Shown: one piece after another, positions 831 through 39,888 of the stretch | Numbering within the stretch: the stretch's first letter is position 1 | How the letters are laid out: every line of letters starts with the position of its first letter | Origin: a virus | DNA: 64,000 bases | Strand: one strand, 5' to 3' | IMG/VR virus record: IMGVR_UViG_3300029827_000121 | Span: 1-64,000 of that record | Made by a program: the position numbers and the translations under genes | Notes under the pieces: model-generated | Seen by the model: only the letters and a program-made list of their open reading frames with translations | Database searches by the model: none | What the model was told of the DNA's origin: nothing

Positions 831-1469
831 TTATATTTTATACTTTGTGTTATAGTCTAATTTTTCCATAACGTATTTAAATTCATTACATATTAAATCC
901 GCTTCTTCTTGCATTATTTCCGTTCTAGTACTTATAAGTCGTATACCTCTATTGTAAATTTTATCCTTTTTTTTTCTATAAAAAGCACAAGATATTTTAT
1001 TTTTAATAGCATATTCCTGCATTTTTTTCATAGCTTCAGTTGATGCAAATTTATATATATCGTCTACTGGTTTTTCAATGTTTATATATGTAGAAATATT
1101 TTCAATTGATTTTTTTAGATTTTCTTCCATATCTTCATATTTTATAATAAAAGGTTTTTTATCAATCCAACTCAATACATGACTATCCCATCTTCCATAT
1201 TTGTTGTTGTAAATAAATTCATTTACATTAACATTTTTTTTATAAAATTGATTATAATATCCTTTAAACGATTTAAATACATTTACCGGATTTCTGACTA
1301 TATAAATAATTTTATCGGCTTTAATTCCCATAGAATGTGTTTTTCTTGCAACTTCTCCATCAATATATGTTTTATTTACATTTTCCAATTTATTACCATA
1401 TATTAATGATGTTACAATAAATCTTACCCACAAATTGCCCGATCTTGGAAAAGAAGCGATTAAAATCAT
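831..1469 (-). CDS. PAPS-dependent sulfotransferase family protein
   Basis: A 212-residue protein opening with the 5'-phosphosulfate-binding loop (SFPRSGNLWVR, residues 6-16). It also has the 3'-phosphate-binding segment (IIYIVRNPVNVFKS) and a typical IIKYEDM strand further on. These are the two PAPS-contact motifs of the sulfotransferase fold. Family knowledge implies transfer of sulfuryl from PAPS to a hydroxyl or amine of a carbohydrate or lipid; the acceptor is not visible. It is shorter than many sulfotransferases (usually 250-300 residues). The start is coupled by ATGA to the upstream methyltransferase. Confidence 0.7.
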   Translation of the reverse strand: MILIASFPRSGNLWVRFIVTSLIYGNKLENVNKTYIDGEVARKTHSMGIKADKIIYIVRNPVNVFKSFKGYYNQFYKKNVNVNEFIYNNKYGRWDSHVLSWIDKKPFIIKYEDMEENLKKSIENISTYINIEKPVDDIYKFASTEAMKKMQEYAIKNKISCAFYRKKKDKIYNRGIRLISTRTEIMQEEADLICNEFKYVMEKLDYNTKYKI

Positions 1470-19762: not shown

Positions 19763-19790
19763 GATGCTCCTTTTTTATCTATTTAATAAA

Positions 19791-20000
19791 TTAAATTATG
19801 AGCATGCATAATTTAACTCGTTAAATGGCTAAATTTGATCAATTTGACCATAATTAACTAAAAGTTAAATTATACACGTGTATAATTTAACACGTTAAAT
19901 TATGAGCATGCATAATTTAACACGTGTTAAATAGCGAAATTCGTTCAAAAACGCTATTTAACGAATATTAAATTATGAGCGTGTATAATTTAAACGATTA
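19791..20000. promoter_or_regulatory. Cluster of AT-rich palindromes (operator or origin candidate)
   Basis: Several closely related palindromes occur in 210 bp between divergent transcription units. One is a perfect 28-bp palindrome at 19864-19891 (half site GTTAAATTATACAC). Two have arms TTAAATTATG and CATAATTTAA around a GCATG-containing centre (about 19793-19816 and 19896-19920), and a partial copy lies near 19969-19993. A different inverted pair, TTAAATAGCG and CGCTATTTAA, lies at 19927-19961. Consistent with binding sites for a dimeric repressor or initiator. Confidence 0.55.
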
Positions 20001-20019
20001 ATAGGGTATAGGGTTTTTG

Positions 20020-25062: not shown

Positions 25063-25135
25063 TACTCTATGAAGGAAAGCAAACGCCAAAATATTTTTTT
25101 AACTCAAAAACAATAGAAAGGATGGAAAAATATAT

Positions 25136-26325
25136 TGCCATGGCGTAGTTGGGCCTTGTTACGCATTGCAAAGCAAAGGTAATGCCAAGTATAGCAATGT
25201 ATTGTGTTGTAAAGGTATAGTGTAGCTGGGCCATGTTGCGCTGTGCAAAGGCAAAGCGTAGTTAGGCAATGTAGTGTATGGCAAAGGTAATGCGAAGTTG
25301 GGCCATGTAGCGTAATGCAAAGGCATAGCTCTGCGTGGTATAGTTAAGCCATGCAAAGGCATTGCATAGTTGTGTGAGGTAATGCAAAGGCATGCCTTGA
25401 GCAAAGTAAATTTTCCCTGTCCCGATTCACTGCCTTCATTGTATCAGGCGGATGAAGGTAAGGAAAAAGGCAGGGAAAATTTATAATTATTTTCGCTAAT
25501 GCAAAGTAATGCAGCGCTTGTCACCGCAAAGGCACGGTTTAGTTTGGCCCCGTGTTTCTAAGCGAAGCAAAGGCGAAGCATTGTGAAGATAGGTGATGAT
25601 AAGCAAAAGATAAGTAATGTTTTGTAAAGTTTAGTAATGCACAGGCATAGTTCTGTATTGTATCGTATAGCACAGCAAAGGCATGGTGATGTACAGTGAA
25701 GTTCAGCAATGTACAGTAAAGACTAAGTCAGGTGTAGTACAGCAAAGCAATTGTAACGCACAGCAAAGGCATAGTTCAGTATAGTAAAGTTAAGCGAACC
25801 ATCGGCAAAGTATAGCGGAGTATAGCTTGGCAAAGACTATGTTTGGTGCAGAGGGGTGCAGCTAAGTACAGCAATGGCGATGCATAGAAAGGTGGTGGGA
25901 AACACTGCACAGGCTAGGCAAAGTGGAGCATAGCTTGGCAAAAGCAAAGCGGGGCGTCGTTTTGTGTTGTATGGCAAAGCAAAAGCAATGTGAAGCAGGG
26001 TCTTGTTTAGCACAGGTAATGCAGTGTATAGTATTGTGTGGCAATAGCACAGCGGAGCTGTGTTACGCACCGTTTGGCATAGGCATAGTTTAGTGAAGTA
26101 ATGCATAGCATAGGCAGAGTCTGGAACAGTACCGTTTGGCACAGGCATAGTTAAGCCCCGTCATATACAGTTGCGCATTGTAAAGGCTGGGCGTAGTGAT
26201 GCATAGTGAAGCACAGGCAAAGCTTGGCAATGTAATGTATAGCTCAGGCAAGGCGTGGCAAAGCATAGTACAGTCGCGCACAGGCAATGCGAGGCGCAGT
26301 ATGGTGTTGTATTGAAAAGCAAAAA
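25136..26325 (+). repeat. Pentamer array 1 (NNNGY with AAAGGY punctuation)
   Basis: Non-coding array of 5-mers ending in GY, broken by a hexamer mostly AAAGGC or AAAGGT every five to six pentamers; the first seven units before 25400 parse almost without error. A hairpin element interrupts it at 25407-25483. The part from about 25560 to 25880 is noisier, with single-base slips, and then it becomes regular again. The hexamer here is AAAGG(C/T) early and ACAGGC or AAAGGC late. Same orientation as arrays 2-4. Confidence 0.85.
25407..25483. other. Hairpin element inside array 1
   Basis: 13-bp perfect arms TAAATTTTCCCTG (25407-25419) and CAGGGAAAATTTA (25471-25483). The 50-nt inner part can form a second stem, CCTTCAT/ATGAAGG (25433-25458). 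None of it follows the NNNGY grammar, so it is an insertion or an embedded functional element. Confidence 0.5.
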
Positions 26326-33883: not shown

Positions 33884-34047
33884 CGCCCGTTCCGTCGCGC
33901 GACCGCCGCCGACGCAACGGCAATGACATCGTGAAAGAAACATGTCCCGAATGCGGTGCGCCGTGGGACCGGGAGCACAACCGATGTACCGCTAATTGTC
34001 AATCAATGGAGGTTTTTGATGAGCAAATTGAAAGCGAAAGATCCTGA
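33880..34047 (+). CDS. Tiny zinc-finger protein (55 residues)
   Basis: Frame from ATG 33880 (coupled ATGA) to TGA 34047. Basic N-terminus (PSRDRRRRNGND), then a CPECGAPWDREHNRCTANC zinc knuckle, four cysteines in C-x2-C ... C-x3-C spacing. The Shine-Dalgarno of the ATPase gene lies inside its coding region. Likely a nucleic-acid-binding accessory of the replication module. Confidence 0.5.
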   Translation: MTPVPSRDRRRRNGNDIVKETCPECGAPWDREHNRCTANCQSMEVFDEQIESERS

Positions 34048-34918
34048 AGAAGTCAAACAGGGTAAGGCGAAAGGACTTCTTTTCGGAGCGAGTGGAGTGG
34101 GAAAAACATGGTTTTCCCTCACATTCCCAAGGCCGTATTATATCGATACCGAAGGGGGAGCGGACGGAGTGGAATACCAGAAACGTCTCAAAGCGGCGGG
34201 AGGCGCGTACATGGGACCGGAGGAAGGAGCGCTTGACCTTTCGGCAATCGTTACCGAAATGCAATCGCTTGCCACCGAAAAACATAATTACGGTACGCTG
34301 GTGATCGATTCGATCACGAAAGTTTATCAGACTTGCATCGCCAACGAGGCGGAGCGTCTCGCCGAACGTGATGTCTTTGGCGCGTCGAAAAAACCGGCGA
34401 TCGCGCAGATGCGCCGACTTGTCAATTGGTGTATGAAACTTGACATGAACATCTGGTTCATCGCGCATGAGACGTCGGAATGGGGTACCAATCCCCGAAC
34501 CGGACAACGGGAAGAGACGGGAAAGTGTCCCGACGTATGGGAAAAACTCGTTTATGAGCTTGATCTGGGATTGCGGGTGATCAAACGCGGCACCGTCTAT
34601 CCGCCAACGGCGATCGTTTATAAAACGCGCCTCGCGGGTTTTCCCGATCAGGAAACCTTTTCCCTCGATTACGAGGAGTTTTCGAAACGGTACGGCAGGG
34701 AGAGTATTGAATCGAATGTAAATCCTATCACGATCGCGTCGGATGAGGATGTCGAGGAAATCGAACGGATGGTGGCGCTCCTTAAAATCACCCCTGAGGA
34801 AACGACGAAAGTATTGACCAAGGCGGGAGCGGACAATTGGAACGAACTTACCGCCGATCAGGCGGCGAAAACAATAGAATGGTTAAACGGCAAATTGAAA
34901 GGCGGAAAAAAGAAATGA
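34019..34918 (+). CDS. Sak4-like RecA-fold ATPase
   Basis: 299 residues from ATG 34019 with GGAGG 6 nt upstream. Walker A GASGVGKTWFSL (about residues 27-38), YYIDTEGGADGVE, and Walker B TLVIDSITK. A later IWFIAHETSEWG strand supplies a sensor-like region. The fold and neighbourhood (SSB-like gene next) match phage Sak4-type single-strand annealing and recombination ATPases (AAA_24). The C-terminus adds a helical segment. ATGA overlap with the SSB-like gene. Confidence 0.7.
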   Translation: MSKLKAKDPEEVKQGKAKGLLFGASGVGKTWFSLTFPRPYYIDTEGGADGVEYQKRLKAAGGAYMGPEEGALDLSAIVTEMQSLATEKHNYGTLVIDSITKVYQTCIANEAERLAERDVFGASKKPAIAQMRRLVNWCMKLDMNIWFIAHETSEWGTNPRTGQREETGKCPDVWEKLVYELDLGLRVIKRGTVYPPTAIVYKTRLAGFPDQETFSLDYEEFSKRYGRESIESNVNPITIASDEDVEEIERMVALLKITPEETTKVLTKAGADNWNELTADQAAKTIEWLNGKLKGGKKK

Positions 34919-35343
34919 GGTTCAAAACCTATTCGGAAAAAGATCTACCGAGAAAAATCATCGATAAAGGCGTTTACGACGTCGAAGTGATCGAAGCGAT
35001 CGATCAGGTAAGTAAAAACGACAAGGAGATGATCCGGCTTACTATTGCCGTCTGGTCGGGGGATCGCGTCGTCAACAGAATCTATGACTATCTGCTTGAT
35101 GAAATGCCCGCTAAACTCCGCCATGCGTGCGATGCTTTCGGGCTGCTGGCGAAATACGAGACGGGAAGCCTCAGAGCCTTCGATTTCGAAGGTCGTGTCG
35201 GTAAAGCGAAAATCGGCATCGAAGTGGATAAAAACGGCGTCTATCCCGACAAGAACAAGATCGATGATTACGTGTGCCGTGAAGCGAAACATCTGGCGGA
35301 CCAGAACAACGCTCCTCCAGCGGATTCCGATCTGCCATTTTAA
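34915..35343 (+). CDS. SSB-like / DUF669-type ssDNA-binding protein
   Basis: 142 residues from ATG 34915 (ATGA overlap). Beta-rich N-terminus (KGVYDVEVIEAIDQVSKND, then IRLTIAVWSGDRVVNRIYDY) as in phage OB-fold DUF669 proteins, an RHACDAFGLLA helix, and the ending PADSDLPF, which resembles the acidic C-terminal tip of bacterial SSB. The tip in SSB recruits partner proteins. Pairs naturally with the Sak4-like ATPase. The stop is immediately followed by array 2. Confidence 0.7.
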   Translation: MRFKTYSEKDLPRKIIDKGVYDVEVIEAIDQVSKNDKEMIRLTIAVWSGDRVVNRIYDYLLDEMPAKLRHACDAFGLLAKYETGSLRAFDFEGRVGKAKIGIEVDKNGVYPDKNKIDDYVCREAKHLADQNNAPPADSDLPF

Positions 35344-35344
35344 C

Positions 35345-35795
35345 GGTGTTTGGTAAGGTAATGCAAAGGCACCGTGGGGTGATGTATTGTCAAGCACAGG
35401 TACAGCACGGTTTTGTTTAGCATAGGCAACGCATTGTTATGACATGTTTTGTTAAGCACAGGCATAGTGAAGCAATGTAAAGTTTTGCACAGGCATGGTG
35501 ATGTAAGGTTTGGTAAGGTGATGCACAGGCAATGCGCGGTGGAGTTTCGTTATGCACAGGCACGGTTTGGCAAAGCACGGCTTCGTTTTGCATAGGCGGT
35601 GTGGCGTTTAGTAAGGTGAAGCTTGGTCATGCACAGGCAGTGCGCGGTGAAGTTTCGTTATGCACAGGCAAGGCAGGGTAATGTTTGGCCCAGCACAGGC
35701 TAAGCTTGGTGTTGTTTGGTAAGGCACAGGAAGAGCAAAGTGAGGTTTAGTATAGCACAGGCGAAGTAAAGCATAGTCAAGCAAAGGCAAGGAGC
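35345..35795 (+). repeat. Pentamer array 2 (NNNGY with ACAGGC punctuation)
   Basis: The cleanest array. Between its first and last hexamer I read 68 pentamers, all but one (TATGA) ending in GY, and 14 hexamers (9 ACAGGC, 2 ATAGGC, 2 variants ACAGGT and ACAGGA, plus AAAGGC at the ends). The pentamer before every hexamer ends in GC; most others end in GT. Hexamers are separated by 4-7 pentamers. Two neighbouring units share GCGGT and TTCGTTATGC, a sign of local duplication. It fills the gap between the SSB-like and excisionase genes. Confidence 0.95.
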
Positions 35796-37671: not shown

Positions 37672-39235
37672 ATACAGAGGCGATGCATGGTATGGTTCAG
37701 TATTGTTATGCACAGGCAGAGCATGGTTAAGCCAAGCACAGGCAAAGCGAGGTAGAGCGAAGTCAGGTGATGCACAGGCACAGCAGAGTAAAGTTAGGTC
37801 ATGCACAGGCAGAGTGATGTCTAGTAAAGCATAGGCGTAGCGATGTGCTGTTATGTACAGGCACAACAGAGTAGAGTTTGGTATTGTTTAGCACAGGCAT
37901 GGTCTAGTTTTGTTTGGCACGGTAAAGCAAAGGCAAAGTGCTGTAAGGTGAAGCACAGGCATGGTCTGGTTTAGCTTGATATTGCGCGGCACAGGCAATG
38001 TAAAGTGAAGTAAGGTGATGCACAGGCGATGCATGGTATAGCAATGTATGGCACCGGCATGGTGCAGTGATGTTCAGTAAAGCATGGGCACGGTGCTGTG
38101 AAGTGTTGTATAGCAATGGCAAGGTGAAGTAGTGCATTGTGTGGCAAAGCCATTGCTTGGTGAAGTGCTGTAATGTCGAGCATAGGCAATGCATAGTGAA
38201 GCATTGCTCTGCAAAGGCAAAGCGTGGTTTAGTGATGCAAAGGCATAGTTTTGTGACGTGCTGTTTCGTAAAGCATAGACTATGCGTTGTGACGCTGTGT
38301 ATTGCAAATGAAAGGCGAAGTGGTGCATGTCGCTGTATGGCAAAGGCGAAGTAAGGTGAAGCACTGTGATGCATTGTGGAGCACAGGCATAGTGAAGCAT
38401 TGTGCAGCATAGGTAAGGCAAAGCGGTGTGTTGTTTCGTCATGCACAGGCATGGTATCGCGGCGTTTAGTGCGGCAAAGGAACGGCAAAGCTTGGCATGG
38501 CGATGGTAAAGCGTTGAGTAGTTTGGCACAGCACCGGCAAAGTAAGGCGAAGTAGTGTTTAGCATAGCATAGGCAAAGCATAGTGAAGATAAGGAACGCG
38601 TCGTGAAGTCAAGCACCGGCAATACATGGTAAAGCACCGTTTGGCCTTGTTAAGGCGAAGTATTGTGTGGTATGGTGTTGTGGAGCATTGCACAGGTATA
38701 GCATGGTGCTGTTATACTTTGTGTAGCGCGGGAAAGGCATGGTAAAGTAAGGTTGTGCCTCGTGTACCACAGGAATGGCAAAGTGAAGTTATGTAATGTG
38801 GGACAAAGGCTGAGTAACGTTAAGTAAAGTGATGCATAGGCATGGCAACTCGCGGTAACGTATTGCCCGACGAAGCAAAGGTAAAGCATAGCAATGTGAC
38901 GCGCAGCGGGGCGAGGGTAATGCATAGTAATGTAATGTGCAGCGGGGCAGGGGTAATGTGAAGTATAGTTTAGTCGCGCAAAAGCTTTGTATGGATTTGC
39001 GTAGTTAAGTGTTGCAAAAGCAGGTCGATGTAACGTATCGTATGGAACAGCACTGTTTTTTTTAACCATTTTGGAAAAAACCAATTGGATCAAATAGAAA
39101 GGAGATGTTCGCGATTGTAAAGTGCTGTATTGCAATGTGGGGTTTTGCAACGGCTGAGTTGAGCAAGGAATAGTTTGGCGATGCAAAGGTATAGTGTAGT
39201 ATTGCTAATCAATGCAAAGGTAAATCAACATTCAA
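37672..39235 (+). repeat. Pentamer array 3, the longest
   Basis: About 1.5 kb of NNNGY pentamers with ACAGGC punctuation, regular over the first several hundred bases (for example ACAGGC, then AGAGC ATGGT TAAGC). It becomes more variable after about 38.6 kb, where single-base shifts are more frequent. It is interrupted at 39053-39112 by a T-run/AAC segment ending AATAGAAAGGAGATG. It resumes from 39113 to about 39235, just before the gene at 39256. Pentamers before hexamers end in GC in nearly every unit read. Confidence 0.9.
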
Positions 39236-39255: not shown

Positions 39256-39888
39256 ATGAAGACGCTCAAAGTAAAAATCACTTTCCAAGAAGAAGTGTTG
39301 GGAACAGCAAGTCCGTCAAAAGAAATCCACGCGGAATATATAGCCAGCAAAGCTCCCGACAAACTAACGCGGGAAGAAGAAGTGGAAGCTATCGGGATAG
39401 AAGAAGTCGTTGAAAAAGCAATGACTATCTTCCCACGCGATAAGGATAGTAATCCCATCTTTTGGGATTACCAGTGGAAGGGATTTTTCAAAGATACCTG
39501 CGCCGCTCTCATGCGCTGTGAAGGATTCGAAACGTATAAGGCATCAAAATCCGAATCGGGTAAAGGAAAGAAAGGAGAATTAAGAGCATATAAAAAGGTG
39601 ATCGATGGATGTATTTTCGTTCACCCGAGAATGATTGCCATCAAAGTAAAAGGCAAAATGGGAAACTGTCAACGTCCTCTTCGCGGAAATACCGCGCAGG
39701 GAGAGAGGATTGCTTTGGCGAACAGTGAAACCGTCCCCGCAGGAAGCACCTGCGAATTGGAGATTCAATGTTTGAGTGATTCCCATGAAAAGTTTGTGCG
39801 TGAATGGCTTGATTACGGCCAATTGCGCGGCATCGGACAATGGCGTAACTCCGGCAAAGGCCGCTTTACCGTCAATTACTTGAAATAA
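39256..39888 (+). CDS. Conserved phage protein of unknown function
   Basis: 210 residues from ATG 39256 with AAAGG upstream; the longer frame begins inside the array. Sequence landmarks are MKTLKVKITFQEEVLGTASP, then MTIFPRDKDSNPIFWDYQWK and GFFKDTCAALMRC, QRPLRGNTAQGERIALANSE and WLDYGQLRGIGQWRNSGKGR. I associate this combination with a family widespread in phages of Firmicutes and other bacteria; function unknown. It stands alone between arrays 3 and 4. Confidence 0.65.
   Translation: MKTLKVKITFQEEVLGTASPSKEIHAEYIASKAPDKLTREEEVEAIGIEEVVEKAMTIFPRDKDSNPIFWDYQWKGFFKDTCAALMRCEGFETYKASKSESGKGKKGELRAYKKVIDGCIFVHPRMIAIKVKGKMGNCQRPLRGNTAQGERIALANSETVPAGSTCELEIQCLSDSHEKFVREWLDYGQLRGIGQWRNSGKGRFTVNYLK

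Follow-up and report, generated by a model that had tools for sequence, protein, structure and literature searches.

A VIPR-class phage locus with a looser repeat word and continuous punctuated arrays

The viral DNA analysed here (hereafter the window, i.e., positions 1 to 64,000 of the IMG/VR virus record IMGVR_UViG_3300029827_000121) carries a locus that belongs to the VIPR (Viral Interference Programmable Repeat) class, as far as this class is characterised in the main text of the bioRxiv preprint that first reported it in April 2026 from phage SUSP1 and a P. fulva prophage (PMC13142463). The window locus has a looser repeat word than these systems, and its arrays are continuous and punctuated. 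The assignment follows from three observations: a RAMP gene is paired with the arrays, its product is homologous to the Vipr protein of SUSP1 by profile comparison, and the grammar scan also returns tracts at the SUSP1 locus. According to the preprint, VIPR consists of a phage-encoded RAMP and guide RNAs of 9–16 YNNGG repeats, which bind double-stranded DNA via the NN positions with one base skipped, so that competing phages are repressed (PMC13142463). A preliminary description of one of the arrays had placed it in no described bacterial or phage repeat class; this claim has to be withdrawn, because the pentanucleotide GGY guide repeats described beside a RAMP gene in the preprint are such a class (PMC13142463).

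The arrays and their grammar

We re-parsed the array that had been described initially (35345–35788; Table 1) into pentamer and hexamer words by dynamic programming. Between its first and last hexamers, 67 of the 68 pentamers end in G followed by a pyrimidine (the sole exception is TATGA). All 14 hexamers, which take the form A[ACT]AGG[CTA], are preceded by a word ending in GC, and GT prevails inside the phrases (40 of the 55 other interior words). These results confirm the preliminary description. The chain score of the array is 59.5. Among 300 first-order Markov versions generated from the array, the highest score is 7.5, and none of 20 third-order Markov versions of the full window exceeds 6. 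Shuffled and Markov-generated DNA alike remain far below the array, and the grammar is not reproduced by chance. The grammar and its punctuation are therefore real, but their extent had been underestimated: the window contains four such arrays, not one.

Together, the four arrays comprise about 790 words over about 4.1 kb, all with the same grammar and all on one strand. They are continuous series of 86–268 words, in which a hexamer occurs every 5–8 elements, i.e., about every 31–36 bases; the first array (25134–26310) is broken by non-array sequence at about 25400–25490. The spacing of the hexamers is very regular (mean of 6.4 elements, with a variance of 1.7 as compared with 35 under random placement), and the mean word length is 5.15–5.16 in each of the four arrays. 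This constancy is what would be expected if the arrays were binding sites on double-stranded DNA, either iteron or chromatin-like: a spacing of 5.16 bp corresponds to half a helical turn, which would point the G-Y steps towards one or two faces of the helix, and with the regular hexamers two words average close to 10.3 bp. We nevertheless regard this explanation as extremely improbable, since the four arrays all lie on one strand and are paired with the gene of a protein of predicted RNA-binding RAMP fold, and since the same grammar occurs in the guide RNAs of SUSP1, which the preprint reports to have been identified by small-RNA sequencing and Vipr pull-down (PMC13142463).

The array has stops in all six frames and is non-coding, which rules out a coding repeat. 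Its predicted RNA fold is in no way unusual (z −0.16), and an Rfam search of the window gave no match, hence no hammerhead there; on these two results, we rejected a structured RNA or a known RNA family for the array. The source record, a virus contig of 73,743 bases, encodes an integrase, a Sak4-like protein, a terminase, and head proteins, in agreement with a phage or provirus origin of the locus, which is among the features of VIPR. A Sak4-like annealing ATPase followed by a small unannotated protein is encoded directly upstream of the array at 35345–35788 (window 33956–35343), and this array starts 2 bases past the stop codon of the gene for the small protein. Elsewhere in the window (19790–20001), we observed an AT-rich imperfect tandem repeat of period 104 with near-palindromic ATTATGAGCATGCATAAT units, which is perhaps an operator or origin element.

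Table 1. Arrays and RAMP gene of the locus (window coordinates).
Feature	Position	Strand	Content or basis
NNNGY/hexamer array	25134..26310	+	228 words; DNA similarity to the array at 35345–35788
NNNGY/hexamer array described initially	35345..35788	+	86 words, 14 hexamers
NNNGY/hexamer array upstream of the RAMP gene	37677..39056	+	268 words
vipr gene, predicted 210-aa RAMP (Csm3/Cas7 fold), homologous to SUSP1 Vipr	39256..39888	+	predicted fold and profile comparison
NNNGY/hexamer array directly after the vipr stop codon	39891..40961	+	208 words

A RAMP protein paired with the arrays

The vipr gene is closely flanked by arrays: one begins 3 bases after its stop codon, and the one upstream reaches to 200 bases before its start. 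The protein matches no known family in Pfam, PHROGs, NCBIfam, or PADLOC. The AlphaFold2 model, built from 53 homologues (mean pLDDT of 86), has as its best PDB matches the Cas7 of type VII and the Csm3 of type III-A complexes (Foldseek E 3e-7), with a VIA-align Z of 12.4 over 164 residues for the predicted model. Profile-against-sequence comparison also matched Cas7 (E 5e-5). The predicted fold is that of a Csm3/Cas7-type RAMP. Among the 2026 PDB sequences is an entry named "SUSP1 Vipr protein" (36pp), which indicates that a solved Vipr structure exists; the profile matched it weakly (E 0.056). For a profile-to-profile comparison, we took as SUSP1 Vipr the product of KT454805.2 28474–29061, a choice based on protein size and on the location of the gene between repeat tracts. 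The hhalign comparison with this protein gave an E-value of 4.7e-6; the 173 aligned columns include the C-terminal glycine-rich loop. The control with the adjacent SUSP1 protein gave 0.5. By this measure, the protein encoded at 39256–39888 is a remote homologue of SUSP1 Vipr.

The association of gene and array is found in many other loci. When IMG/VR and GTDB genomes were scanned for the grammar only, 81 and 34 stretches were returned, respectively, and the array loci among them come from many different phages and bacterial phyla. Relatives of the vipr gene, an unannotated gene of about 200 codons, were identified by tblastn in 73 of the loci found by grammar, in most of which the array begins at most 30 bases past the stop codon of the gene and on the same strand. 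The reverse search, by protein alone, identified 424 IMG/VR loci that encode a relative. Among the best 80 of these 424 loci, 77 have an array inside 900 bases (0 of 80 in Markov controls), a count that holds once G[ACT] words are allowed, as some relatives use NNNGA/C/T words. In three loci (L203, L232, and L235), the vipr flanks show such words together with hexamers of the form NNNGGA or NNNGGC, so that the grammar is looser there. Two sister phages, whose head protein is 87–89% identical, have neither the vipr gene nor any array. Arrays also occur in genome contigs of Clostridia, Saccharibacteria, Dehalococcoidia, and others. Many other pattern matches in genome contigs (Variovorax, Acidovorax, Actinoplanes, and others) have no real chain, and we rejected them as chance.

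Relation to VIPR and to CRISPR-Cas RAMPs

The grammar scan, run blind on the first 50 kb of SUSP1, returned four tracts and no others. One lies upstream of the vipr/vap gene pair and three lie downstream, in agreement with the arrangement reported in the preprint (PMC13142463). Three of the four tracts are closed by a 6-mer (GTGGGT or ATGGGT), which adds a hexamer element to the features common to the two loci. In the window, as in SUSP1 and the P. fulva prophage, a phage gene for a RAMP of about 20 kDa is flanked by non-coding tandem pentanucleotide repeats with an invariant G-Y and hypervariable bases, and the proteins are homologous by profile. The main difference concerns the third base of the word, which is hypervariable in the window (NNNGY, with G in 22% of the words) and mostly G in SUSP1 (NNGGY; 39 of 50 words, 78%), the GY remaining constant. 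A further phage locus (L084) has both styles of word, as a separate classical NNGGY tract of at least 11 clean words (1169–1250, minus strand) sits about 1.5 kb downstream of its NNNGY array.

Two further, apparent differences concern features of the VIPR systems in the preprint, namely an invariable structured 3' tail on each guide and a vap accessory gene (PMC13142463). The window has continuous arrays punctuated by hexamers instead of separate guides of 9–16 repeats with a structured tail; we saw no recognisable 3' tail between the words of its arrays, and the fold is unremarkable. A constant vap gene is also not seen with loci of the window type: we found no constant accessory or neighbour gene in 127 distinct loci, common phage genes aside. 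The preprint names seven types of VIPR, mentions a "related consensus" in some of them, and describes "staggered arrays with overlapping vrRNAs" (PMC13142463). In its main text, these two expressions may cover the NNNGY type with hexamer punctuation.

The other relatives to consider are the RAMPs of class 1 CRISPR-Cas (Cas7, Csm3), which are like the window protein in their fold as predicted, in the glycine-rich loop, and in the filament that it would be expected to form on RNA. Unlike these systems, the window locus has a register of five bases instead of six and one small protein. Its arrays have no conserved direct repeat, just the 5-base register, and none of the nine proteins scanned around the array is a Cas protein. 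With neither a repeat-spacer array nor a multi-gene cas operon seen around the array, we rejected class 1 CRISPR-Cas as an identity for the locus.

We consider it very probable that the arrays are non-coding, vrRNA-like guides of a phage VIPR system, in which RNA coated by the RAMP would pair with the DNA of rival phages and silence their genes. They would be transcribed from the + strand along with early genes, and the resulting RNA would be coated by copies of the RAMP, each subunit covering one five-base word. In every word, the invariant G-Y would be the contact with the protein, and the variable bases would be held out to pair with rival-phage DNA, the genes of which would then be silenced. 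The hexamer (NNNGGY) would probably mark a place where the protein filament or the guide is adjusted or ends. Transcription, RNA binding, DNA targeting, and repression at the window locus are steps that we infer from its homology to the relatives described in the preprint (PMC13142463).

Turnover, targets, and reading of the arrays

The comparison with a sister phage (L132/G003) shows how the arrays change. The flanking genes are 95–97% identical between the two phages, and the vipr gene is 93.5% identical (37 synonymous and 2 non-synonymous codon differences), whereas the arrays are 78–84% identical. The changes are mosaic, with near-identical blocks beside rewritten ones, and the indels often match a phrase in length (26, 31, or 36 bases). 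In the rewritten blocks, the words differ at 62% (N1), 69% (N2), and 60% (N3) of the variable positions, at 4% of the G, and at 29% of the Y. Over all pairs of related arrays, N1, N2, and N3 each differ in about 21% of the words, G in 3%, and Y in 11% (mostly C/T). These rates bear out the suggestion that the grammar is kept and the sequence is not, as would be expected of guides with hypervariable bases set in a constant scaffold for protein binding.

We searched for targets with N1N2, N2N3, N1N3, and NNN codes and 0–3 skipped bases, in all the loci collected here and in the sister phages. Neither about 2.3 Mb of phage DNA nor four pattern scans of IMG/VR yielded a target, whichever reading rule was applied; in the IMG/VR scans, the decoded guides gave chance-level matches alone, none of them extending. 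In the collected loci and the sister phages, forward counts were no higher than those of reversed or word-shuffled controls. Early high scores were due to low complexity, and a period-5 excess for the NNN code came most likely from unmasked arrays. The search for guides convergently common to unrelated phages gave no convincing case.

The lack of a match in these searches, the widely varying lengths of the arrays, and the resemblance of the protein to CRISPR Cas7/Csm3 could also be explained if the array RNA were a decoy, a sponge, or a structural scaffold for the RAMP (e.g., an anti-CRISPR RNA that occupies RAMP subunits), in which the variable bases would hold no target information. We judge this very unlikely: entire blocks of words have been replaced at N1, N2, and N3 between sister phages whose genes remain almost identical, and the relatives are reported in the preprint to target DNA (PMC13142463).

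If the arrays are guides, the number of bases read per word can be approached from the dependencies between positions. N3 matches N1 and N2 in its hypervariability. It shares excess information with the N1 of the next word, across the G-Y gap (z 7–8), in a pattern that resembles genomic adjacent dinucleotides (r 0.66–0.77), and its association with the next N2 resembles genomic pairs at distance 2 (r 0.78). The dependence between N2 and the next N1, which a three-letter code predicts, is weak. In an independent GH-type set, the information between N3 and the next N1 was kept (z 3.2), and the match to the genomic pattern was not significant. The codon-position composition of N1N2 did not separate the hypotheses. 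The dependencies hint at three consecutive target bases per word, short of proof. Hence, we put forward only tentatively, as a possibility with somewhat less than even chances, that this clade reads three contiguous bases per word with no skip; the third base, an unread G in SUSP1, would then be variable and paired, and the hexamers would interrupt a single long polycistronic guide array at regular intervals.

The window locus is an independent example of VIPR, the proposed ancestor of CRISPR RAMP systems, and it comes from a widespread clade. It has very long and densely punctuated arrays of putative guides, the blocks of which turn over from one sister phage to another. Should each word be read as three bases, the clade would show how the skipped code of VIPR relates to the nearly continuous code of CRISPR.
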